Notes: a model not told the origin generated them from the letters alone. Numbered from the stretch's first letter, positions 4,697 to 33,838 are shown. The stretch is 64,000 bases of DNA from Antedon mediterranea (GCF_964355755.1 NC_092672.1:24548501-24612500); one strand, 5' to 3'. Numbers and translations are program-made.

Positions 4697-6213
4697 GTGT
4701 GCATTAAATCATTAAAGACGGTACTACTCATATTGTGACGTGTTGTGATGAATGCGATCGATGGGACGGTATGATTTATTTTTGCAAAGGTTAGATCAAC
4801 GTGTTGGTATAATGTGGTTCGGTTAAATCGTGGTACAGTACATGCTTTATAGATCGTAGCACCAAAGTACTTAATAACAATTGCTTGGTGCTCACGCCCG
4901 TGCCCGCGAAGTTGATCTTAAACGATTACAGCGATTGCAGAAACAAGGCTGTGTTTGCGTGTGGACGGTATCAGCCTTCGGATGGTTTATATTGAAATAT
5001 CTCGATTGGCTTCATATAAAAACAAGAATTGTGTACAAAATTATTGTTTTTGTTCATAAATGTATTTACTCTGTTTCCTTTATACCTTTTTTTATTTAAC
5101 CGTGATCCACTTTCATTTAATTTCGACTTCTCTCCTCTAATTGATCCCACCCGACTTTTCGTTGCACGATCTAATCGGAAAGCTGGGGACAATACTTTTC
5201 TATCACCTCTCCGCGGATCTGGAACGTAACGCGCTTCCTGTCGATTTAAGAGGAGCGAATTCGGCAACTCTATTTAAACATCAAAAACTTTTCTTTAATT
5301 AATAATAGGCGTACTAGTGTTGTTAGGCGCTCTGTTCATTGTAGAGGGCGCCTATACGAACTTATAGAATAGAATATAAATAAATATTCTTTTGAAACGT
5401 GTAACTTAAACACATCTGATATCAATGATCAGTGGCCTCTTGTACCTGACAATGATGGATGCAGCCTGTTTGGTTCTCATTGCTTTTTCTCAGTGGGTGA
5501 AAACGTATAGGAAGGTGCGTTCCTACTCTGTTTGGTTATCCAGAAACAATTCCCGTATCGGATGAGTGCTTTCAACGATGTAATGTAGACGCGGCAGTAT
5601 GTGAGCCATAAGTCGGTAGAAATCTTGTCGTATGCGACATGATTTGATTATCGTATACAGATGTGTGGCTGTTATCGTATGTTTGTGATACATCGTATTC
5701 TTATTTTGTTTTCTAAATAAAACTTTCTAGCCAAAAAAGAAAAAAAAATTGTCGTATGCAGATGTGTGTCTCTTATCGTATGTTTACAATGTTTTAATAT
5801 TTCTGTAATAACAAACTAAAAATCGTATTTTAATTTTTTAAATTATTTGTTATCTTTTTTTGATTTCTTACAAAGATGGGGATGATGTTAAATTGAAATT
5901 CATGAAAGCGCCTTGATTGATGCAAGCATGCAAATGTATTAGACACGGTCATAATAATATTATTGACAATGGTGCGTGCCATACTGTTCTTGATAATGAA
6001 ACAAACATTAAATTAACATAGCTAAACTATGAACACATCTATGGTCTTTCTCGTTATGCCTGGGGAAGCGATATGGAAACGGTAGTAAAACAGTGTTAGA
6101 ACATTGATCCCAAACAGGAATAATGTTGCTAAGATACGAAAAGGAAAAGCAGAAAACTCAAAGCATAGAATACTTTGAAGAGATTTGCAAAAGAGTTGTG
6201 TTGACCAGAGGCT
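4697..6213. other. Non-coding stretch with one more coding-like island
   Basis: No supported gene. A short frame near 5518-5610 reads CVPTLFGYPETIPVSDEC and then stops shortly after a few more cysteines. It may be another remnant of the same kind as 4553-4696. Around 5324-5355 a 7-bp inverted pair TAGGCGC/GCGCCTA forms a small hairpin. The rest is AT-rich. Confidence 0.35.
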
Positions 6214-6810
6214 ATGAATTGCATAGAGCCAGGCACTCATCGTTTTACGAATATTTATCGTACATCTGTATACGATAATCAAATCAATGGCATGTTGTTC
6301 CCAGAGCAGATTTACGGATTTCGAAAAGTATTGAGTTTCATGCATCAAACTATAGCACAACCAGAAGATTTGTTGAGAAAACCGATATTGAAACTGAAAA
6401 GGAGCACTTGGCAGTGCATCAAGAGCGTAGACCTTAAGGTTGATTTTGGCGAATTTATAGAAAATGCAAACATCGACGTCTTAACCATGTATCATAACGT
6501 ACTGGGTGGTATTAAACGTGAAATGAATAGAAAAGACAGTTTCCTACCAAACACTCTGTTCGATGTCATAGAGAACATTAATGTGCCACAGGGACTCTTG
6601 TGTCTTCCAAGGTCTTTTATAGCAGCCACACAGATGGCTATGCAAAAGGAATATAAATCTACCATGAAGAAATTACATCCCCACGTGACACCGGAGCTCA
6701 TACAAGAATATGCTACATTCACTCCATCGGACATTCTGAACGACACACGCATTTCTGAAAGGTTCTGTCTAAAGACAGCCATTCTTTTCTTGTTATTCGG
6801 CCGACTTTGA
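6214..6810 (+). CDS. Unrecognised 198-residue reading frame, copy A
   Basis: The frame is open for 198 codons and has non-repetitive, protein-like composition, with motifs such as LPRSFIAATQMAMQKEYKS and ELIQEYATFTPSDILNDTR. I do not recognise the family and can assign no function; no signal peptide or obvious membrane segment is present. The part from about 6260 on is duplicated at 11350-11900. Beyond the TGA at 6808-6810 the same frame continues for some 30 charged, protein-like codons (ERENPFICWDEEHNRLEEE), so the stop may be a decay mutation shared by both copies or a read-through site. The start ATG at 6214 lies outside the duplicated part and may not be real. It may be a fragment of a larger gene, a captured transposon or viral-type gene, or a pseudogene. 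Confidence 0.4.
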   Translation: MNCIEPGTHRFTNIYRTSVYDNQINGMLFPEQIYGFRKVLSFMHQTIAQPEDLLRKPILKLKRSTWQCIKSVDLKVDFGEFIENANIDVLTMYHNVLGGIKREMNRKDSFLPNTLFDVIENINVPQGLLCLPRSFIAATQMAMQKEYKSTMKKLHPHVTPELIQEYATFTPSDILNDTRISERFCLKTAILFLLFGRL

Positions 6811-7573: not shown

Positions 7574-8001
7574 CTAGATGAATTCGATATCAGTAATACA
7601 TTTTTTCAAATCCCTTCTAAACCCCCCAAAGATAAACAGGACTTTGTTACGAACTTCATGCGGGATACATTCCCATATTCGAGGGAAATTAACAAACAGG
7701 GAGTATTTAAATGCATTAGTTCTAGCATACATGTGTTTAAAGGTGAGGGACTCTGGATACCGAGAATTAATTGTAAGGTATTCAAATATATCAAAATCAA
7801 TTAAATTATGCAAACACTTAACTACAAAAATTATACTATGAAATTTCATTCTTTGAACCATATCTGGTAAATTTAGAATCTTAAGCCTGTCAGTGAAATT
7901 GCCTTCAACATACAATTTAGTAACCCGTCTTAATGACTTGTTAATAGCTATATTATGTTGTTTTTGATGTGGATCCCACACAGGAGCACCATATTCAAAT
8001 A
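7574..8001 (-). pseudogene. LINE ORF2 C-terminal part, frame-shifted from the RT
   Basis: The frame continues the RT protein after an extra T at about 8001: the upstream frame ends LFNALCRPVI-stop, while this frame carries EYGAPVWDPHQKQHN and then RRVTKLYVEGNFTDRLKILN. The pattern RPVIEYGxPVWDPH is the usual post-RT motif of CR1/L2/Jockey elements. The piece also carries the conserved IPHEVRN motif before the stop at 7574. The single extra base (GTTATTTGAA where GTTATTGAA would be in frame) is the only visible lesion here. Confidence 0.85.
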
Positions 8002-9508
8002 ACAGGTCGACATAGTGCATTAAAAAGTCGTAGTAAAATTTCGGTGTCATTGAAACCTACAAACCGTTTGATAAACCCAAGCATTCTCATAGATTTCATC
8101 GATACATCATTAACGTGAGCAGACCATGTTAAATCACGTGAGAAGTTAATACCAAGATATTTATGTGAATTAACAGCTTCAAGGGGATTGGATTCGATTG
8201 TATAAATAAAATGAGGGATACAATTACGTTTCCTAGTTATGTGCATGACTTTACACTTCTTTGCATTTAATTTCATTTTATTATCCTCACACCATTTGGA
8301 AATTTTACAAAGATCCTGTTGTAAAGTAAGTGCATCATGACGACTGAATACAGGTTTATAAATTACTGTATCGTCTGCATACTGCTTCATAACAGAAGAG
8401 GTATTTAGAGGTAGGTCATAAACAAAGAGATTAAATAGAAGCGGGCCTAACACGGATCCCTGAGGAACACCCGAGCCCACTCTATCCCAATCCGAATGCT
8501 CCTTATTAAGAACAACACGTTGGAATCTGTCACTGAGAAAGGAGTGAAGACACTTTAGGAGAGATCCACATACTCCCATGTTGTGCAGTTTCTTGATTAC
8601 TAAATCATGGGGAACACGGTCAAAGGCCTTCTCCCAATCAAGGAATATTGCATCAATTACAGGAGGTTGTCTAACATCCATTGTTTGTGACCAATCATGA
8701 TATAACGCTGAGGCCTGTGTAATACACGATCTACCTGGATAAAACCCGTGTTGCGTGGGACTTATAAATCCAAAAAATTGAAGATGAAAAAGAATGTTAT
8801 CTGCTATAATACGTTCAAAAACCTTACCTATAATAGAACATAGCGATATGGGTCGATAATTATTAACATCGTTCCGATTACCTGACTTAAAAATAGGAGT
8901 GACATTCGCGAGTTTCCAATCTTTTGGTACAAAGCCATCCGTTACGAACTTGTTAAACATTTTGCACAACAATGGGGCAATAATTGGAGCTGACATGGAT
9001 AACATTTTAGGTGTAATCCCGTCTGGTCCAGGGGATTTGTTGGGTTTCAATGACAATAGAGCCTCGAAAATAGTTTTTTCAGTAATATTAATGTTATTAA
9101 GGGAAACAATATCTGGGTGAACACAATTACAGATCTCATGGTTAACATTGAAATTACGATTAGGTTCGTTAAAGTTTGACGCAAAGAATGTGGAAAATGC
9201 ATTTACCGCATCAATATCGGAAACCAAGGGTATACCGTTAAAAACAAAGTTCTTGACTTGTCCAGTCTTACGCCTAGTCTTAACATAATAATAATAATAA
9301 TAATAATAATATCTATCTACAGGTTTAACTTTACTGCATCTAGCGTTAATATTAAAATAAACCCCAAGGTGGTCACTTGTAGTGAGACCGGGATGACTTC
9401 TGAAATTACATACAATGTCAGGGTTATTGCACAAGACCAGATCAATAATGCTACTTTTGGTGTTAGATACACGAGTAAAAAAATCAACAAATTGTATAGT
9501 ATCAAGTG
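8002..9508 (-). pseudogene. LINE reverse transcriptase segment of ORF2
   Basis: RT motifs occur in the right order: LKPNKSPGPDGI, NNYRPISLCSIIGKVFERI, GFYPGRSC, FLDWEKAFDRVPHDL, GSGVPQGSVLGPLLF, QYADDTVIY (catalytic YADD near 8368-8385) and the thumb motif HKYLGINF. The N-terminal part (IDLVLCNNPDIV, TSDHLGVYFNI) is the tail of the endonuclease domain, read in a frame one base off from the preceding part; the shift lies near 9510. The linker between endonuclease and RT is much shorter than usual and contains nine tyrosine codons from a TAA microsatellite (9285-9312). It would copy element RNA into DNA at a nicked target if intact. Confidence 0.9.
9285..9312. repeat. (TAA)n microsatellite inside the LINE linker
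   Basis: About nine ATA/TAA units lie in frame within the LINE coding strand, giving a run of nine Tyr codons. The surrounding protein linker between endonuclease and RT is shortened, so the microsatellite sits at or near a deletion junction. Confidence 0.85.
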
Positions 9509-10525
9509 AGCAATAATTTCTTTAAATTTCTTATAAACTAAGGGAATATCAACACCGTAATCATAATTAAAATCACCAGTTAAAATTATACCACAGTACT
9601 TATGTAAAATAGACAGGATAAAATCAACGACGTGGAATTGATTGAGCCAATCGTCATTTGAACTCGGTGGCCTATAAACAGCACATATTAAAACGTTAAA
9701 ATTGTTATTTACAGTTATTTCAATAATTTTGACCTCAATGTTAGTAGGAAAGTCAACAATAGAGGATTTAAATGCGTTCTTCAAAGCTAACAGAACACCA
9801 CCACCGTGTCTTGAACGGTCTTTTCTGTACACAACGAAAGAGTCTGGAAACAGTTCCGTACTATCAATAGAGGAGTCCAGCCACGTTTCTGTGACAATCA
9901 AGATATCCAATTCATCAATTGCGATACGCGCATGGAATTCTTCGATCTTATTCACCACACTTCTGGCGTTAAATAAAGCAACTTGAATAAGGTTAGTTTC
10001 AAAGATGGAAGAATCAGTTGATGTATTGCTGGATGCAAGTGACAATATACTGTTGTTGATCAATGAGTTGTAAAAAAATGAGTCCGATAGTTGTGGTAGG
10101 GAGCAGATGTTACACGCCCATGGATTATCTTGATAAAACACATAACTATCGCTGCTCATAGGTATGCACTTGATATGAAATATGTGATGACATTCACAGC
10201 AAATCAGACATTTTTGATTGCGTCTCATCGTTTTAGCGCAAGATTCACATGTATTCTTCGTACTATTACCGTTTCCAATATGCTGGCTCTTGTTCCTATG
10301 CATCAGCTCTGGGCCTGGGTGAGGATGAATGTCGCCACTAACCAACAAACATAGGTTAAAAGTCGAATAATGATTGGCGTAATATCTCACAGGCCTACTT
10401 ATATATCGTTTTCTTGTGGTGTTATTAATGCTGGCACATGTTATCGTGCCAGGGAGTGATTTACGGCAGCGAAATCTGTCAGCCGATGTTGTGTGGACAG
10501 TAGGCCTATGTAGCCGAACGTTCAT
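9508..10525 (-). pseudogene. LINE ORF2 N-terminus: 2A-like motif, PHD finger, APE endonuclease
   Basis: From the ATG at 10525, residues 60-72 read LLVSGDIHPHPGP, resembling the 2A ribosome-skipping motif GD(V/I)ExNPGP but with H in place of the essential N. Residues 93-141 form a C4HC3 PHD-type zinc finger (Cys 93, 96, 109, 112, His 117, Cys 120, 138, 141). An APE-like endonuclease follows, with FNARSVVNK, ETWLDSS, RHGGGVLLAL, YRPPSSN and LTGDFN motifs. Correct coding ends near 9510, where a single-base shift moves the reading to the frame with FVDFFTRVSNTKSSIIDLV. Whether the ATG is the native start is unknown. Confidence 0.85.
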
Positions 10526-11185: not shown

Positions 11186-11349
11186 TTTTTGTTAATTATA
11201 ATCACAGACAAAATGAGATTTTAGGCTATAGTAATCATTCATCATACCGTAAGCACATTTGTCATAAATGTAGGCCATACAACATTGGAATGTCGGTCCT
11301 TGACTCGCTACAGATTACCGTAGGTTAGAGCCTGTTTACACGTATGGGC
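11186..11349. other. Short unique spacer
   Basis: No feature seen other than AT-rich sequence and a stretch TTGGAATGTCGGTCC before the duplicated segment begins. Confidence 0.3.
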
Positions 11350-11900
11350 GTACATCTGTATACGATAATCAAATCAATGGCACGTTGTTCCCAGAGCAGA
11401 TTAACGGATTTCGAAAAGTATTGAGTTTCATGCATCAAACTATAGCACAGCCAGAAGATTTGTTGAGAAAACCGATATTGAAACTGAAAAGGAGCACTTG
11501 GCAGTGCATCAAGAGCGTAGACTTTAAGGTTGATTTTGGCGAATTTATAGAAAACGCAAACATCGACGTCGTAACCATGTATCATAACGTACTGGGTGGT
11601 ATTAAACGTGAAATGAATAGAAAAGACAGTTTCCTACCAAACACTCTATTCGATGTCATAGAGAACATTAATGTGCCACAGGGACTCTTGTGTCTTCCAA
11701 GGTCTTTTATAGCAGCCACACAGATGGCTATGCAAAAGGAATATAAATCTACCATGAAGAAATTACATTCCCACGTGACACCGGAGCTCATACAAGAATA
11801 TGCTACATTCACTCCATCGGACATTCTGAACGACACACGCATTTCTGAAAGGTTCTGTCTAAAGACAGCCATTCTTTTCTTGTTTTTCGGCCGACTTTGA
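11350..11900 (+). CDS. Unrecognised reading frame, copy B
   Basis: This frame duplicates the one at 6260-6810, with the TGA stop in the same place. I count about nine base differences over the shared frame, of which six change the residue (M/T, Y/N, L/F, L/V, P/S, L/F). That high share of replacements argues against strong purifying selection since the duplication. The frame is open upstream to about 11350 but has no convincing start codon; it can only be a fragment. No family is recognised. As in copy A, the frame after the stop continues as charged, protein-like sequence, until a homopolymer expansion (T12 near 11980) disturbs it. Confidence 0.35.
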
Positions 11901-15566: not shown

Positions 15567-16404
15567 TATGGGGCTGTCACGATAAATATGGTCCGGGGCC
15601 AAAATCGGTCCGGGCTTTTCTTCTGTCGATTTTAATTGAATTACTAGGCCTATGATGCTGTTTTAAATTGTTTATGGCTATAAAAATATCCCATGATATA
15701 TATTAGTAAGTTATCTTGTCGGATAAATACTATAAATAAATGTATTTTATCTAAAAACATGACTTAGGTGTTCACTCATATTTCGGCCTGCCACACACTC
15801 ACATGAACGGGTATGAGACGCTGATATTGCCAGCTAGATTTTATTTATGATTGAGGCCTTTTTCCTTTTCCTCAGCCTAATCAATATTGGATAATTTGTT
15901 TCTAATAATTGTATTGAATTGATATATTGATTGATTAACCATAAATAATTAATAAATTAAATTGTTTTTAACATCATGGGGAAACGAAGATGTTAAAAAA
16001 GAACAAAATGGATTAAAAACAGGCAGAGATACATATTGTATACAAAAAGCCTAACAATTAGTACTTATTATTGATGAGTTACTACTAATAATGATAATAA
16101 AAAAACAGGCTTAATTTATAATATTAAAATAACAAATAAAACCCCATAGTTTTCAATATAATGACTAATCATGGCCTTTTTTTTAATGATATATACATTA
16201 TGACTCATATTGCGCACCATATATTTGTAAGACCGGACCATATTTGGCGGCCAAAAACAGTCCTACTGCCCGGACGCGATTTTTTTTTCGTACATAAGTT
16301 GGGGACCCCCTCATGAAACGTCACAAAATAAACATGAATAATTCATCAGTTAAATTTTCTTGTTCCGTGTGCACCCAAGCGTATAGCAACAAGAAGTGAT
16401 TACA
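15567..16404 (+). repeat. Left terminal inverted repeat (split)
   Basis: Outer part 15567-15620 and inner part about 16215-16404 match the reverse complement of 24558-24824. About 560 bp (15630-16190) are present only on this side, probably a later insertion. GGTCCGG/CCGGACC subterminal motifs recur several times. Confidence 0.8.
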
Positions 16405-17660
16405 CAATTCTAGGCCTAATCTCCGCTGAGGGTACAGCTCAATCTTCTCACTCGAAACGGTAAAGAACGCAAAAATAAATGGACAAGAAATGGACAGAGC
16501 CATGTGGGGTCATTAAAACTGAATTGGACTGGGTCATTAGATAATGAGGAAACTAGACAATTGGCCAATGGGACCCAAGAATCTAGGAGGTTGTTTTGAA
16601 TACCGGCATACTAAAAACTGTCAATTTTAGGGGTTTATCACATGATCGATGTATTAAATGAATAAAAATATTAAATTATAGAATAATAAGACTTAAATTT
16701 TTTGTTAAAAGTTGAGAAAGTCGACATTTTTTATCCAATTTTCGAAAAATCCTTGTACTACAGTACATGAATTTTGTTTTTTAAAACACGGTAAATTCGA
16801 CTACAATATGTATGTTGTATTAATTGTTAGTTCTTTTAATATGACGAGACGTTTTTTGTTGTGTTTTTAGGGTGTGAACAATTGTCAATCAAAATTGTAT
16901 ATATATGTTAAATACTATGTAACTATTTAAAAAACCCACCCTGACTTCTGATTGGCCAACCATATTCCAAGTAGTTTGATAAGTTAGCCTTTTTCAAAAA
17001 TTTAGACAAAATTACCGTTAACTTTGTCTGGGGCTTTTTTTCTAGGCCACATGGTATCATAGGATATGTGTAACTGTAAGAGGAGTAACTGAAGGTTACT
17101 GGATAATAACCTCTATAGTATGAGTTATTATCAAAATATATTATTAGAATTGGTGGAATGAATTATTTGATTCACATCAAAATGAATTGTAGTGGAATTG
17201 CTCTTGAAATAAATATAAAATAGTTGAGAATTTACACTACTAAGGAAATAGTCTTGACAAGAATATAGAATTCACCATTTAATGTACACTCAACTGCAAA
17301 AGTTTCCCCTCTGCTTTTTTTGTAAGGGCTTGGGACCTTCAAATACAAAGTGCAATGAATGATATAATGTAAATTATAATGTAATAATTAAAACTGAATG
17401 TAATTTATAAAAATTACAAAATAATTTACAACATTAATCATTGCTCTTTGGATTTGGCAGCATTAAAAACTTTTTTTTTTTATTATTATTATTAACTTTA
17501 CTGCACATTCAGAATACCATTAGATATGGTGGCCCAATGGCCAAATTGCATAAAATACAAATATTTTGTAAAAAGTGAATATAAAATCACAGAACAAATA
17601 AAAATTGAAGATATACGAAACAGTATAAAAACTATCCATGGCTACAACAATCATTTGGAA
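16405..17660. other. 3' flank of the DUF6729 gene, non-coding
   Basis: No coding sequence supported. A run TTTTTTTTTTTATTATTATT at about 17467-17490 gives AATAAA-type hexamers on the minus strand about 170 bp after the stop codon, a plausible polyadenylation region for the minus-strand gene. Confidence 0.45.
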
Positions 17661-20600
17661 TCATTCTTTTTGCTGCTTTTTTTTCCTCTCTTGACGAAGG
17701 CGACGGATGGCAACCATAGCCGATTTCCATTCTTTAAAAGTCACATCAGATGTTGCAGCACAATACCAATTTCCATAGTACTGAGTGTGGTTCTTATTTA
17801 ATCTTGGTTGCTTACACTTTGAGCACACAATCGCAGACGTTCTTGGTTTGTATATTTTGATCGGTTTCCCTTCCGATATGTCTTTAGCCACTCGTTTTCT
17901 GTACAAGAGGGTAGTTCTAGGAATACGAGTACTGCTAGCCTCAGGGACTGACGGTGGTGGTTTTGCTATCTCGCCAGGAACTGGGATCGACGGTCTGTTT
18001 CCTAGAGTCGCTAGGCCGGAAGTGTTTTTTGGTAGGACAAATGTGAAAGATGGAGCGCTTGTATGAACGTTTAGCACCGCTGGCTTGGTTAAAGGTTCAA
18101 GTAGGGTTTTATCAGAGACAAGTTTGGGTATTGTTGCCGAGATGCCAGATTCCAACACTTGCCGCTCTTGCTTCTTTGACGTTCTGTTGTACCTGTTGAA
18201 AATAAATCAAACACAGTATTTAAAAACTTTAATGTATTTACTGTAGCGTAAAATAACAATCAATAACAAGTAAAAACTCACCACTGGATGAGTGTCGTAC
18301 GATTTATCTCCATCAACTGAAGCTTAGCAAACAACATCAGGTGTCCATTCGACAGCACTTTCCGACGAATGTTCTTGTAGCCTTTGGTAATGAGCGGCCA
18401 GCGCTGGAAACGTTTACCTTCGATAGATACGGTAGATGGATACGCTTCACATAGTTTTGTAATAATGCACTCCATATATCGATTGCAGTCCGGCCACTGA
18501 GCTGGCCCGGTGTTCTGACCTAAGAAGCATCTTTTTTAAAAAAAACCGAAGAAACAAGTTAGATTTAAGACACATCATGCAACAAAGTAAAAAACGCTGG
18601 AAACTGCCTTACCGTCGAGTGCTTTCGACACCAGGTATTACGGAAGTAGTTTTACTTTTCTTGAACCTGCCTTTCGTCAGGTAATCTTGATGCCGTGCTT
18701 TGCGCTTAATGGTTTTGTCATAAGCATCCAGGTTGTTCCACAACTTTGCGACATGTTCAGCATGACTTTGACTTATCACTCCACTGTCTTCCTTAAACTG
18801 CATAAGGTAGTCTGCCAGGGCTTCAACTTTGGCGTAGCCTGGAATGTTGTCCGGTCCAGTGGAATCCTCAAGTTCCTAAATTGTAAAATATGAAAACAAA
18901 ATATATAATCAGACTCGTGCATTGTATTTCAAAACAGAAACAAAATTTGTGAGGTAGAACCTAATGATACAAATTTAACTCACTGTGTCAAAAAGGGCTG
19001 CTTTTCCTTGACCATCATCATCATTATCGTCACATGAAGGCAAGGGCTCCAGCTGGGGTGGTGAGGGTTCTTTAGCATTTCGAGGTTCAAAACAACGCTT
19101 AGGTGGTTTGTAGTCTGGTTGAGTCTTGTCATCATACCCTTCATCAACATCAAAAGTGTAAATTTCTTCATCAAAGTCTTCATCATAAATGGTATCTGTT
19201 TTGACAGGAAATTGAGTTTCGAGCACTTTGTTCGACTGGTTGTACAGGTACTCCACTCCGATGAGTTCTCCAGTGTACTTGTTTGGAATGATAAAACTTT
19301 TGTACACTTTTTTGCCAATCACTTGCTCTGCCAGTATGTTGAGAGCATGCTGATGCAGTCCACTATATGTACTGGAGATGGGTCCTCCAGACTGGGTAGC
19401 GGCTAGTGCACGGTTTGCATTCCATCGAACAAGTCCATCCATCAGGTAAGCTTGGAAATGTAAGTCGCTAGCACGCTCACCTGAGAAAAAAATAAAACAT
19501 CCATAATAATGAAATAATACAAAAATCTGTAGATCGGTTTGAAGATTTGGTAGATACCAAATAAAAAGTAATACTGTACCTGGAATAAACCTGTTAAGGT
19601 GAAGATGAAACGATTCCAAAGAAGTGGAGCCTCTTGCGCAACGATATACTGGCAAGGTAACTCCACCCTTAAGCATCTCACTGGTTTTTGTGTAGAGCGG
19701 GATGCCTTCTGGATCCTGGATGCAGGCGATGTGTCGCTCTTGTGAGCTCCAGATATCCCAGGTCTGTTCAGAGTCTAAGAGTGGGACGCCCATTGTGTCA
19801 CGGCCTTCTTCACCATCGAGGGAAGTCAGCAGCTCTCGGATTAGGTTGGCAGTCTCGCGAGTCATTCGTGTTGTCCTGCGACAATGTAAAGCATACTCCT
19901 TCTTGCTGATGTTTTTCAATATGATGTCGTCTGTTGGGTTGGAATGCTTCTTGCTTGCAATGAGCTGTTCACGCTTGGCGAGCTTCAGAAGTTCAACATC
20001 GTCAGCGCTCCACTCAAAAATGCAAGCGGAAAGACGTTTGAGAAATATCGGATACAACTGATGTGATTCTGTTGAACAAGCTGCAGCAATTCTCCTCATG
20101 AAGTGCCAGATGTCCAGACGAATTTTCATGTCAGGCCAGGCGCTGAACATCTTCCTTATGCTTGAATGACCGCAGCAGTCACGGTCGACGTAGAGAATCT
20201 CGGGAGGAGGTACGCCTGCCAAAGCATATCGGTTAATGATGCCGTTTGTCATGTTGTTTAAGCCACATCCTTCTGCAGCAGTCAGGACTGTAATGAGCAC
20301 CTGGCCGTACTCATTTCCGACGTTTGTTGCCCACGCTCCTGTTCCACATGCACGACCGGCTAGCTTCCTTACAATCTGCAAAAAAACCCAAACAAATTTA
20401 TTAGGAAGAAAGCTTCCCCACAATCTGCAAAAAAAAAAAAATTCAAATAATTAAAAGTAAATTGCAGAAATAGTATTGTTTATAAATTATTTACACTTTT
20501 GGTCGAGTCAATCTTCAACACTCTTCCGAACGTCGATGTGATAGAAGCCTTGAGTTCGTCGATTCTTCCCATTACTTCGTTGCAGTAGATGGTAAGGAAC

Positions 20601-22259
20601 CATTGGACAGAGGGAACAGGAATCATTTTAGACACCTCATCAAATTTAGAAGCAGCAATGACATAATCATCACGAGAACCACAGAACTTCTTGCAATTTT
20701 CTAAGTAGAGAGCCACTCTCTCATTCCACCGCCTTGTGTGTTGTTCTAAGACTTGTTGGCGAAGCTGTGATGGACTGTTACCGAGACCGCGGTACTTTAG
20801 AAGCTGCAGGACCCGGTTGTCGCAGGCCAAGTGATACGAAAGTACAACAGGAAACTGAAGGCGATGTGCTAAATCAAGTTGCTTTAAAATGTTTTCACTC
20901 CAGCCAATTTGTCTTTGTTTGCAATTAGAGCACCTCAGTTGCTCTGTTGCAAGAAAGTAGTGGCAGTCTAAATCCAGGACCGGACGAACGATTCCATGGA
21001 GGCCGCCTGATGTTAGTGGATAGCTCTTGCATTCTGGCCGAGGGCAGACCAGCTTGACCTGCCAAGTCTTGCGGGGCAACCAAAGAAGAAGACGATGACC
21101 GAAGTAACTGTTGGCCATGGGTATGTTTTTGTTGAGCGGATCCGGTTGAGGTGGATAATACCAAAGTTGTTTGAGTTTAGTTGAATCCAACTCTGCGGTC
21201 CCCTTCTTCGATTTCTTGAATAAGGTTTTTGAAATCCACTGCTGATCGATCTCGGGCAAGTTCTTCTTCCATTTATCTGGTATGAGACAATCTGCAAGAA
21301 AAACCAAAACAAAATTGTATAATTAATGAAACTACATTATGTAATTTTCATTTTCTAGTTTTAAAAATCAAACAAAATAATTAAAATTACACTGAAATAA
21401 ACTACCTTCACTCTGTTTGATAGTTATTGTAGTGTATGGCATAGTACTAACAGGTTCATAAGATGTATTTGGTTGAGCTGTAAGACGGAAAATTAAAGAA
21501 TATTTAGCAGTAAACTACTTTCATTCGCTATCTACAGTATGCTATAAAGCAATGTATTTAAACAACACGATTTTATGATTGAGTATAAATGAATGCATAA
21601 AAAAAAACGTAAACCCAGCAAGCCTACAACATACACAGGCACTAAAAATGCAAAACCTAAAATTATTAATTTAGAAAATGCACAAAAAACACAAATATGG
21701 AATAAGTCTCACCTGGTGCATATGAGGTTGATGGTTGCAAAGAAGCATCAAAGACATCAGTACCAGAAAGTGTTTCATCTGTGACATCCTCAACCTTTTG
21801 TAGCTTAATACCAACAGGTATGTACGATGTCTGTCTAGTTGGGCATTTCCTGCAGCGTTTTATTTCTTTCATTGCTATGGCTTCTTTGCCTTCTGGGAAA
21901 GACTCCAAGTACCTCTTAAAGTTGAATTTGTTAATACTAAGTGAACTTGTACTTGGAATTTCATTAGCCATTTTAATAACAAAACATACTGCATATTCCA
22001 GTACATTTTCGACCATCCACTTGAATGTTTGTCCACTGTATTTACTATGCTGAAACTTGTAGCAGCCCAACACATCACATTCATCTTTGGTGTTTCCACC
22101 CAGCCTGCACACCTCCTTCAAGGCATCTTGCCGTACATCATCAGGAGTTAGACACTTGCCAGTTGGTCGTTTTCTCAAGCTGTTAAATACTACAGCAGCA
22201 GATGTATCTTCAAGAATTAAGGCACCCTCTTCACTGCGCCGAAAAGTTGGTCTGAACAT
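17661..22259 (-). CDS. DUF6729 / D-D-E transposase-like protein, 8 coding exons
   Basis: Coding exons (minus strand, in order): 22259-21713, 21477-21406, 21291-20495, 20375-19580, 19480-18984, 18875-18613, 18530-18282, 18192-17661. All introns are GT..AG, phases agree at every junction, and the total of 3753 bp gives 1250 residues plus stop with no frameshift. Exon 1 has FKWMVENVLEYAVCFVI and a CRKC pair. Residues about 207-450 match DUF6729 (LWYYPPQP, LWLPRKTWQVKLVCP, YFLATEQLRCSNC, YHLACDNRVLQLLKYRGLGN). A transposase-like core follows: D468 (KIDSTK), D536 (YVDRDCC), D-x2-H at 560-563 (DIWH) and E726 (TSLESFHLHL). The C-terminus has an acidic stretch and a CxxC...H...C motif (CSKCKQP...GNWYC) before a Lys-rich tail. 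The start is the ATG at 22259, the first in frame. D(2)H-type cores are found in several cut-and-paste superfamilies; I cannot name which. It could be a domesticated gene, but the flanking inverted repeats favour a live transposon. Confidence 0.85.
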
Positions 22260-22352
22260 ACTGTACTGTCTATTGAACACCTGCAAAACTAAAAAAACTG
22301 ATCAAAGGCAAAAACATATGTAAGTAAAGTATGTGAAAAAAGAAAATTTTAC

Positions 22353-22393
22353 CCGTATAATGCCACTGTGCACCGTGCAGTTGTAGTAAATGG
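22353..22393 (-). other. Probable 5' non-coding exon of the DUF6729 gene
   Basis: A 41-bp segment is bounded by TTTATTTACAG (acceptor) and GG|GTAAAA (donor) on the minus strand and precedes exon 1, whose own acceptor is TTTTGCAG at 22281-22288. It is in frame with exon 1 (reads YYNCTVHSGIIR) but contains no ATG, so it is probably untranslated or part of an unseen longer start. Confidence 0.45.
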
Positions 22394-23623
22394 CTGTAAA
22401 TAAAAGAAAATCAAATCTAAATAAAATAAAATATCTGTGGGTTAAAATTTCTCAAGTAATAATTAATAGTAGACCAAGACTTTAAATGTAAAATATTAAT
22501 AAAATGAATTACATATAGCATTAAAACATATCTACTAAGAACAAACTATTTTATCTAAATTAAATTAAGAAAATATTACATATGAATGAATTTTTCAATT
22601 AAAAAAACTATATAAAGAATTACAACATAAAGAGTAAATTGAATAATCTTTGTTTATTAAACAGTGTATGTATCAACTCTTTGATCCCTGAGCACTTCCT
22701 TTAATGCAATCAAATTATTTGAGAATCTTATCTAAATCCACAAATACAGTTGATTGCCTAATTAAACGAATGCTTTAGATCAAAGAGTTGAAGCCTACAC
22801 TTAATTAAACAATCATTATAATAAAAGTTAAATTGTTTATCTATCAATTAAAAGGGTTGACATGTGAACAAGGCTTTATAGTCTGTTTCCCATGGATGCT
22901 ATTCTGATACACAGCACACATTTAGTTTTTTATAGTTTAAAATTATGTTTAGGCCTAAAATCTATTACAGGGTACATAGGCTAGTCTAACTAGTAGTAGG
23001 ATTGTTAAAATATTAAATAAATTAAACTTTAAAGAATAGCTTAATTACTTTAAACTAAATTTATTTACTATGGGATGGTTCTACGATAAATACTAATCTA
23101 AGCCTAGGCCTAGTCTAAACTACTGTAGTAGATAAGTTTTGAAGAAAATAAATAACAGGGAGCCCTAAGTAGGTAGCATCTTACTAGGGCCTAGCCCTTA
23201 CAGGCCCATGGTTTGACTTACAATTCATGGCAACCAAAAAAGATCTAGGCCTACCTAGAGGTCTTTCTATCTAGCCTACTAGCTAGGCCCTAGGCTATAT
23301 AGTAAATACATTAATTAAAGTAAGTGTCGAGTGACACTATCTAACCCTAACTAACCTATAAAGGCATGCGTTATTGTTAATACTTTATGAAATATATGTA
23401 GGCCTACTGGTAATTAGGGGGATAAGTAATAATAGCAAATGCATTTTACCACACACAGAGCAGACTACCGCCAACAAGAATTAGCGTCGGCACCCATACA
23501 AACACATTTGCTAGGCCATGGCATAGTTTCTATTGACTATGTATGGCTAGGTTAGGCCTAGGCCAAACAAGTTATCAACACTTTAAATGCCGATTTCAAG
23601 CATGAAATCAATTTCGCTCTTAC
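22394..23623. other. Probable first intron region, AGGCCTA-rich
   Basis: No coding sequence was found. The second half is crowded with the palindromic motif AGGCCTA (for example 22950-23300 and 23545-23565). It lies between the 41-bp exon and the candidate first exon at 23624-23680. Confidence 0.4.
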
Positions 23624-23680
23624 CTTTAATGCAAGTACACGTTCGAGTTGAATACAGCTACTACCAGAATTCGCCTTGAA
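23624..23680 (-). other. Candidate first exon (5' UTR) with GTAAGA donor
   Basis: On the minus strand ...TTGCATTAAAG is followed by GTAAGAGCG, a strong donor match, just downstream of the promoter-like region. The upstream limit is arbitrary, and no ATG in a useful frame was found. Proposed from position and splice signal only. Confidence 0.35.
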
Positions 23681-23789
23681 ATTAATAATAATAAGTCTAG
23701 AGGATTTGTAAAAACATGTTGTCGCATGTTAGTCTCTGGACAAAATCTCATCATTGTTTGTGTTGTGAAAAACTTGTTTAAGTCACATA

Positions 23790-23950
23790 TTAATTACGTC
23801 ACTTTTCAGTGTTCTGATTGGTCAAAATGACAAATTTGGAACAATTTTTCTAATGCTCTGATTACGTCACTTTTCAGTGCTCTGATTGTTCAACTTTTGG
23901 AACGCTTTCCGCTGCTCTGATTGGTCAATCAGTTGTTCAATTCATTGTCC
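23790..23950 (-). promoter_or_regulatory. Promoter-like region with duplicated CRE and CCAAT boxes
   Basis: ATTACGTCACTTTTCAGTG occurs twice, at about 23794 and 23859. Read on the minus strand each gives TGACGTAAT, a CRE/ATF-type site. Three to four GATTGGT-type elements (inverted CCAAT) lie in the same 150 bp. CRE plus CCAAT without a clear TATA box is a common promoter layout. It lies just upstream of the candidate first exon of the minus-strand DUF6729 gene. Confidence 0.45.
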
Positions 23951-24145
23951 AATTCAATGCCGCGTGGGATTTCATAAAAGAATAGCGGCGTTTTGTGTGA
24001 ATTGTCGAAATAATCAGCCTTTAGTTTAAGGTGTTTTTAATATAATTTATTACTAAAGAATTACGTATTAAAATTATAGTTTCTATTAATACTATTAGGC
24101 CTAATTATTAGTCTCTAAACCCATGTCTATTATTCTAGTAGTAGC

Positions 24146-24171
24146 TGTGTGGGTGTGTGTGTGTGTGTGTT
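24146..24171. repeat. (GT)n microsatellite
   Basis: GTGTGGGTGTGTGTGTGTGT-type run with one G interruption. Confidence 0.9.
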
Positions 24172-24557
24172 AGGTATAAGTCAGCAAAATTAAACAATAA
24201 CATTACACAAAAATACATTTTTTATTCTCGTGGGTCTAATCTTCCCATCTCATGTGTTCACATACGCGCATTTTTAAAGTTCCTTTGAGTACATGCATAT
24301 TGTTTGATAATAAAATAGCAGAATTAAAAAATTACAGTACACAAATTATACACATTTTTTATTCTTGTGGGTCTAAGCTTTCTTTGGGCTATGTCCAATT
24401 AATTTAATATCTTGCCTAGCTGTCGATTAGCCTCGACACATTTTGCATAGTGGTGTGTGTGTGAAGATTAAGAAGAGTGCGCGAAGGCAATCACGTGAAT
24501 TGACCTAGAATCCTAGGCCTACTCTAGAAAGAATCGTATCGCAGTTTAGTTGTGCGT

Positions 24558-24824
24558 GTAATCACTTCTTGTTGCTATACGCTTGGGTGCACACGGAACA
24601 ACAAATTTAACTGATGAATTATTCATGTTTATTTTGTGACGTTTCATGAGGGGGTCCCCAACTTATGTACGAAAAAAAAAATCGCTGCCCGGACCGATTT
24701 TATCCAGGCCGGACCAGTTTTGGCGGCCAAAATTGGTCCGGCCGGACAGGTTTTGGCAGTCATAAATGGTCCGATCCCCCGGACTGATTTTGGCCCGGAC
24801 TGATTTTGGCGTGACAGGGCCCTA
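24558..24824 (-). repeat. Right terminal inverted repeat of the DUF6729 element
   Basis: Reverse complement starts TAGGGCCCTGTCACGCC and repeats CCAAAATCAGTCCGG-type blocks several times before the shared inner block that matches 16215-16404. The block GTTCCGTGTGCACCCAAGCG is identical in both ends. Confidence 0.85.
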
Positions 24825-25313
24825 AAAACGACAACAAAACATAATAATGGCATAAAAATGGCAAGAGGCATTAATAAAAAGATTAAAATGTAGGGCTACA
24901 ATAAAACAATGTTAAAAATTGGATTAATTAATATAAGTCATTGCAGTCATTTCCCAGGTACGTACTTCTCAAGATCCAGGTCATAGAATGTAGAGTCGCC
25001 CACCCTTCCTTCTTCAGCAGCAACACACGTGTGTCATGGCATGATGACTCATCAAAAAAAGTTCTCAAAATGAAACATGTAGGCCTATGTATGTATGTGG
25101 GGTGAACATGTTGTTACGTTTGTTGCCTGTAATATTTTATGGTAATTAGTAATTTATAGAACAGTGAATGTTAGGAAAAAAATGGCGAAATAAATGTAAG
25201 GGTACACTCAGCTACTAAACTATAATTAGGCCTAGCTAGCCCTAGGCTAAATACTACGTACTAGCTAGGCCTAGCTAGGCCTAAGAAAGTGTCTGTAGGC
25301 CTAGGCCTACTTA
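24825..25313. other. Non-coding spacer between two transposons
   Basis: No genes seen. The right part has repeated CTAGGCCTAG palindromes. It ends with TTA (25311-25313), the left target duplication of the Harbinger-type element. Confidence 0.5.
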
Positions 25314-32204: not shown

Positions 32205-32440
32205 TTCTAGGACACCTACCCCCTAGACAGTTACCCCCCGGATGTTTACCACCCGGACAACTACCCCCTTAGGACAACTACCCCCCCGGACAACTACCCC
32301 CCGGGCAACTACCCCCTTAGGACAACTACCCCCTTAGGATAACAACCCCCCGGACAACCACCCCCTTAGGACAACTACCCCCTTAGGATAACTACCCCCC
32401 GGTCAACTACCCTCCGATCAACTACCCCCCCCCCCCCCAA
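32205..32440 (+). repeat. Minisatellite GGACAACTACCCCCTTA, left block
   Basis: About 14 imperfect units of 15-17 bp built from (A)GGACAACTACCCCC(TTA/CC). The same repeat recurs in reverse orientation at 33500-33838. Ends in a C-run near 32427-32438. Confidence 0.85.
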
Positions 32441-33480: not shown

Positions 33481-33499
33481 TTAGGGTGTTCTAAAGGGA

Positions 33500-33838
33500 T
33501 AGTTTTCTGGGTGGTAATTGTCCGGGTGGTAATTGTCCGGGGGTAATTGTCCGGGGGGTAATTGTCCGGGGGGTAATTGTTCCTAGGGGGTAATTGTCCG
33601 GGGGGTAGTTGTCCAGGGGGTAGTTGTCCTAAGGGGGTTGTTGTCCTAAGGGGGTTGTTGTCCTAAGGGGGTAGTTGTCCAGGGGGTAGTTGTCCGGGGG
33701 GGGGGGTATTTGTCCGGGGGTAGTTGTCCTAAAGGGGTAGTTGTTCTAAGGGGGTAGTGGTCCAGGTGGTGGTTGTCCGGGGGGTAGTTGTCCGGGGGGT
33801 AAATGTCCAGGGGGTGAATATCCGGATACGGATTGGAT
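33500..33838 (-). repeat. Minisatellite GGACAACTACCCCC, right block (inverted)
   Basis: On the plus strand the units read GGGGGTAGTTGTCC(TAAG). This is the reverse complement of the block at 32205-32440. The outer edges also resemble each other in inverted sense (GATTGGATCGG on the left; GATCCAATCCG read outward on the right), so the two blocks may be the inverted termini of one element of about 1.65 kb. Confidence 0.8.

Follow-up and report, generated by a model that had tools for sequence, protein, structure and literature searches.

A Transposase Gene Inside Nested Insertions

The window analyzed here is a stretch of 64,000 nucleotides of Antedon mediterranea (GCF_964355755.1 NC_092672.1:24548501-24612500). 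Our subject is a transposase gene on its minus strand and the element that carries it, which very probably belongs to the Dada superfamily of DNA transposons (Table 1). An earlier note on this DNA had described the gene as intact and as the transposase of a ~9.3-kb transposon with long inverted repeats, a candidate for an undescribed family.

Table 1. Features of the element and its surroundings (window coordinates)
Feature	Position	Strand	Basis or remark
Host element 2, CCGGACC-repeat element	15574..24817	unstranded	inverted ends CTGTCACG; encloses the MITE; unrelated to the gene
Host element 1, MULE-like MITE	16276..24685	unstranded	130-bp TIRs 16276-16405 / 24556-24685; holds the Dada copy
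Left flanking 6-mer CCGCTG, after CT	16423..16428	unstranded	place of the Dada target duplication
Dada-type DNA transposon	16429..23955	minus (gene strand)	seven other full copies compared by blastn and at their ends; end searches
Transposase gene	17661..22259	minus	8 exons, 1250 aa; splice model, GT-AG introns, continuous phase
Transposase exons	22259-21713, 21477-21406, 21291-20495, 20375-19580, 19480-18984, 18875-18613, 18530-18282, 18192-17661	minus	
DUF6729 (PF20499)	20569..21270	minus	residues 214-447; Pfam E=1.1e-79; encloses the CCCC zinc finger
Catalytic region D468 - D536 - D560xxH563 - E726	19616..20508	minus	four-sequence paralogue alignment
C-terminal CCHC zinc finger C1197 C1200 H1209 C1218	17756..17821 (approximate)	minus	residue positions compared with published Dada-U6_DR

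The splice model bears out the intact gene: the eight exons join into one protein of 1250 residues across seven introns, and all phases agree. One intron (20494-20376) separates the codon of D468 from that of D536. DUF6729 is the sole Pfam match in the protein, and the N-terminal CCCC zinc finger (C289 C294 C327 C330) falls within it. The predicted catalytic residues, D468, D536, D560xxH563 and E726, are invariant across an alignment of four sequences, in which the paralogues are 85, 40 and 36% identical. The CxxC...H...C tail is present as well. Sequence searches of Pfam, NCBIfam and PDB returned nothing for the catalytic region beyond DUF6729, viral contigs yielded no relative, and a literature search found no paper on DUF6729.

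The genome holds 28 matches to PF20499, of which about 13-15 score near-identically to the window gene; these and the other genome copy counts given here are lower bounds. It is well supported that the gene product is, as had been proposed, a predicted D-D-E transposase; the DNA transposon to which it belongs is multicopy.

The window contains three nested insertions. The Dada copy lies in a miniature inverted-repeat transposable element (MITE), which lies in an element rich in CCGGACC repeats. The MITE has terminal inverted repeats (TIRs) of 130 bp that start with GCGATTTTTTTTTCGTACATAAG.. (inner inverted repeat: 78 nt at 100%, 53 nt at 96%) and is bordered on both sides by TGCCCGGAC, a 9-bp duplication without mismatches (16267-16275, 24686-24694). 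These TIRs and the duplication, together with 1227 candidate places in the genome (41 matches listed), are Mutator-like (MULE-like). An empty copy of ~0.9 kb (L073) joins window positions 16276-16428 to 23958-24685. The outer element has 160 candidate places (77 matches listed). Its empty copy (L068) joins window positions 15571-16283 to 24685-24826, with the 9-mer TGCCCGGAC present once. The outer element is abundant in the genome and measures ~940 bp when empty; partly palindromic repeated CCGGACCGATTTTGG / CCAAAATCGGTCCGG blocks stand near both CTGTCACG ends (15574-15640, 24685-24817, L068).

Given this nesting, the inverted repeats do not belong to the element that carries the gene. The CTGTCACG ends and CCGGACC repeats do exist as described, but both repeat pairs occur elsewhere without the gene, a result that the earlier note had itself named as a refutation of its model, and in the genome gene and inverted ends do not move together. 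Comparison of the window with four other loci by blastn gives a common unit of about 16421-23955, not 15567-24824. The repeated unit is 7.5 kb long instead of ~9.3 kb (16429-23955, left end 16429/16430), and its other genome copies sit in quite different flanks.

An alignment of the ends places the left terminus, AGGGTACA, at 16429 and the right terminus, ..TTATTTGTA, 25-26 bp past 23955. The left end AGGGTACAGCTCAATCTTCTC is complete in the window copy, which lacks the last ~26 bp (TACAGCACATATTGGGTTATTTGTA) that other copies have. By inspection, there is no inverted repeat between the ends AGGGTACAGC.. and ..TTATTTGTA; the element has no TIRs. At the insertion site the empty MITE copy reads CTCCGCTGTTGTTGCGG. 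Since the right end of the window copy is truncated, CCGCTG does not recur on that side. This copy thus represents an off-target insertion, truncated on its right, in a MITE that is itself nested in another element.

Probable Membership in the Dada Superfamily

The best explanation of the whole, and one in which we have high confidence, is that 16429-23955 represents one copy of a Dada transposon with recent activity. For Dada-U6_DR, Kojima and Jurka (2013, PMC3706591) report the motifs D567/D635/E811, C389 C394 C429 C432 and C1359 C1362 H1372 C1381. The window protein has the same order of D, D and E with a DxxH after the second D, and its D-D spacing of 68 is the same. Both zinc fingers are present, with CCCC spacings of 5/33/3 (5/35/3 in Dada-U6_DR) and CCHC spacings of 3/9/9 (3/10/9). 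The 6-7 bp target duplication of Dada is seen as GTACTA on both sides of a copy at C1:11.13 Mb and as GCAAGG around a sister copy in a U6 gene. Lack of TIRs agrees too, and an element of 7.5 kb with an 8-exon gene fits the 4.7-11 kb and intron-containing gene of the superfamily. Dada families with defined ends usually insert in multicopy small-RNA genes; the window family does not, but its sister family does (U6). Such insertion is not a property that defines the protein family, and Kojima (2022, PMC8869645) also lists a Dada-tV copy in a hAT element.

The fit to Dada on nearly every testable defining feature removes the claim of an undescribed kind of transposon. Our verdict is a new family and target variant within a known superfamily, and Repbase may already hold these families. 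DUF6729, taken earlier for the DNA-binding part, corresponds to the N-terminal zinc-finger region of Dada; it is plausibly part of the DNA-binding half of the transposase because the CCCC finger lies in it. As a whole, the earlier observation is partly confirmed and its interpretation partly supported.

Several points weigh against the assignment to a recently active Dada element. Its basis is published descriptions of motifs and ends. The spacing to E is 190 in the window family and 176 in Dada-U6_DR. In the PDB sequence search the catalytic domain has no sequence link to any solved RNase H transposase, and a single-sequence AlphaFold2 prediction of exon 4 alone has low confidence (predicted local distance difference test, pLDDT, 37.6). 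Finally, the ratio of non-synonymous to synonymous change (dN/dS) between the window copy and the C8 and C4 copies is 0.64-0.71, on few changes (window versus C8: 4 synonymous, 9 non-synonymous). This ratio is not low and does not establish selection on the copy in the window.

Two other assignments were considered and rejected. A KDZ/Zisupton element finds no KDZ match in the Pfam search of the protein. Rolling-circle or tyrosine-recombinase movement, which the arrays described below might suggest, finds no such domain by Pfam, and a single 6-mer between units is published for Dada-U1.

The sister family lives in the same genome, and its protein is 77-85% identical to that of the window family. 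One sister copy, at C10:15.95 Mb, lies inside a U6 gene, CCCCT[GCAAGG]element[GCAAGG]ATGACACG; to one side of it Rfam identifies U6 positions 1-71, and to the other the 3' part. The left end of the sister family is matched in full at three places and its right end at two. More distant Dada-like genes, 36-40% identical in the catalytic region, occur in the same genome at C8:15.02 Mb (L076) and C3:36.53 Mb (L077).

Copies, Arrays and Activity

Recent activity of the family is well supported. All eight full-length copies examined (the window, two on C4, one on C5, four on C8) are intact, with the whole coding sequence open and the same splice sites. Six of the eight stand in head-to-tail arrays, whose units are 100% identical on C4 and 99.97-100% identical on C8, and loci differ by 0.15-0.7%. 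Between the C5 and C8 copies 12 changes are synonymous and 5 are non-synonymous, a dN/dS of 0.12.

Another array, at C5:17121813-17137428 (L074, L028-L030, L060-L062), consists of internally deleted units of 5206 bp, head to tail and joined by GCGCAA. This 5.2-kb derivative lacks about residues 66-686, and with them DUF6729 and the greater part of the catalytic region. Its occurrence in an array suggests either that it moves in trans or that it was amplified passively.

At C1:9377979-9405000 (L015, L016, L023, L033) head-to-tail Dada units of two families lie beside the satellite described below, and one of them has further insertions in its gene. Here, at C1:9.38-9.40 Mb, a window-family unit and a sister-family unit are joined by GCGCAA, and the sister unit ends at [GCGCAA]TAGTACAGGG of the satellite.

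Insertion into a Palindromic Satellite

The main target of the window family is a palindromic satellite with tandem units of ~196 bp and the core CCCTGTACTATAGTACAGGG, which also forms arrays without the element (L066). It adjoins 14 of the 18 distinct left ends outside arrays (L039 was assigned from its flank). The four non-satellite left ends belong to the window copy, with its site ..CT/CCGCTG in the MITE, and to L023, L035 and L040. Twelve insertions are at the core CCCT/GTACTA/TAGTACAGGG, either between CCCT and GTACTA or in place of GTACTA. Satellite-related sequence has 1664 candidate places in the genome, and the 24-bp core has 260 + 277 = 537 exact matches, a count in which a few palindromic places are included on both strands. 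About eight U6 genes match over their full length. Hence, with hundreds of cores, the satellite is far more abundant than U6. Immediately 5' of the 6 bp that are duplicated, U6 (CCCCT/GCGCAA) and satellite (CCCT/GTACTA) have a motif in common.

Neither the satellite nor the flanks of satellite copies match an RNA family in Rfam, and a literature search for Dada elements with satellites found no report. Insertion mainly in a satellite core appears to be new for Dada. An element that seeks palindromes or hairpins as such is an unneeded assumption; U6, satellite and other sites share the T before the 6-mer (CCCT at the main sites).

The Flanking 6-mer

At C1:11.13 Mb an insertion into the satellite shows a clean 6-bp duplication, CCCT[GTACTA]element[GTACTA]TAGTACAGGG. 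At most core insertions the left 6-mer is a different one: GCGCAA in 10 of 12, with GCGCTA and GTACTA once each. GCGCTA (L034) is a mosaic of the GCGC of GCGCAA and the TA of GTACTA. On the right we see GCGCAA, GCGCAT and GTACTA. Uninserted satellite cores match exactly with GTACTA 537 times and with GCGCAA 0 times.

These flanks suggest an element that takes its 6-mer along when it moves, in line with Kojima's proposal for Dada-tA. In that report (Kojima 2022, PMC8869645) the target 6-mer of Dada-tA is replaced, and the flank of an ancestral Dada-U6 is suggested to have traveled along.

Alternatively, GCGCAA could be the left terminus of an element that is 6 bp longer and inserts without duplication. 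Its presence at the left of 10 of the 12 core insertions would fit, yet we consider this improbable. GCGCAA also adjoins the right end in C5, C11, L053 and L063, and GTACTA stands on both sides at C1:11.13 Mb. Internal left junctions in arrays are GCGCAT or GTACTA, and L034 has the mosaic.

It is far less likely that the palindromic repeats beside the C4, C5 and C8 copies are long TIRs of the element itself and not its target. The flanks of these copies are indeed mutually inverted, owing to the palindromic satellite core. However, satellite arrays and hundreds of exact cores exist without the element, the four non-satellite copies sit in unrelated DNA, and array units are joined by one 6-mer with no palindrome between them.

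The two weakest alternatives are virtually excluded. A domesticated, Dada-derived host gene, like dDada of cyprinoid fish, would explain the long, intact coding sequence, but not the many near-identical copies at different loci, with insertion-site duplications, arrays and intact catalytic residues (in dDada the D and DxxH residues are mutated, PMC8869645). A 9.3-kb transposon whose inverted ends are the CTGTCACG/CCGGACC sequences accounts for the gene's location between those repeats, but seven other intact full copies begin and end at 16430/23955 (+26 bp) in other flanks, outer and middle repeats are found empty, and the 9-bp duplication shows the middle element to be a separate insertion.

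A Proposed Model for Target Change

For a Dada element whose flank travels along, we propose the following route. The element recognizes CCCT (or a weaker ..T) ahead of 6 bp, which become duplicated. Its ancestral target was very likely the U6 snRNA gene (CCCCT/GCGCAA). Excision may take the flanking GCGCAA along, perhaps as overhangs or as a circle joint. At the new site the carried 6-mer would replace the target 6-mer or pair with it as a heteroduplex, and repair could leave flanks with GCGCAA, with a mosaic such as GCGCTA or GCGCAT, or with the GTACTA of the target. Arrays could arise from re-insertion beside a resident copy or from unequal exchange. The element's structure and limits, its copy number, its preferred target, the 6-bp duplication and the replaced 6-mers are shown by the sequences; catalysis, this carry-over route and the direction of the target change are what we infer.

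We see about even chances for the broader claim: that Dada is not an ordinary cut-and-paste element but installs the donor's six nucleotides by heteroduplex and repair, with GCGCAA as a relic of the U6 target. The window family would thereby be the first known satellite-specialized Dada lineage and among few such DNA transposons.

Few DNA transposons are target-specific, and those that are attract interest for site-directed insertion. Here two sister Dada families form a natural experiment, one in U6 and one that probably moved to a satellite with the common CCCT/G motif. Uninserted targets number in the hundreds in this genome, which also has clean empty sites, junctions with mosaic 6-mers and near-identical intact copies. 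Two questions become testable: how Dada switches target, and what causes the 6-mer of the target to be replaced upon insertion. The link between DUF6729 and Dada also makes proteins annotated with this domain candidate relatives of Dada.

Other Features of the Window

Minisatellite blocks in opposite orientation (GGACAACTACCCCC, GGGGGTAGTTGTCC) lie at 32207-32412 and 33496-33815, about 1.1 kb apart, and may mark a further element with repeated subterminal blocks. On the plus strand two nearly identical open frames of ~200 aa (6205-6810 and 11304-11900) flank a non-LTR (long terminal repeat) retrotransposon, whose frames encode a reverse transcriptase (7995-9521) and an endonuclease (9317-10525). 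The frame at 6205-6810 has no Pfam match.

Comparison with Known Systems

The middle host element resembles Mutator-like MITEs in its ~130-bp TIRs and 9-bp duplication. Unlike the gene element it is non-coding and without a transposase; it is the insertion site of the gene, not its source.

With Dada-U6 (PMC3706591) the window family shares D-68-D, DxxH and E, zinc-finger spacing, introns, absence of TIRs, the CT before the 6-bp duplication, the 6-mer GCGCAA, and a left subterminal TCTTCTC at the corresponding position. In the sister family, the left end has the published Dada-U6 subterminal motif TCTTCTCTG, and the window family has TCTTCTCAC at equal distance. The right-hand subterminal repeat CAGAGAAGA of Dada-U6 is not seen in the part of the window family's right end that was read, and, unlike Dada-U6, the family has a palindromic satellite as its main insertion site in place of U6. 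Tandem copies parted by one 6-mer are published for Dada-U1 (PMC3706591).

A parallel for the flanks is Dada-tA (PMC8869645). There, too, GCGCAA (TTGCGC on the opposite strand) takes the place of the target 6-mer at one flank or at both, and descent from Dada-U6 with the flank carried along has been proposed. The target of Dada-tA is tRNA-Ala, whereas that of the window family is a non-RNA satellite. Beyond the Dada-tA report, uninserted targets are counted here (537 versus 0) and mosaic 6-mers are seen.

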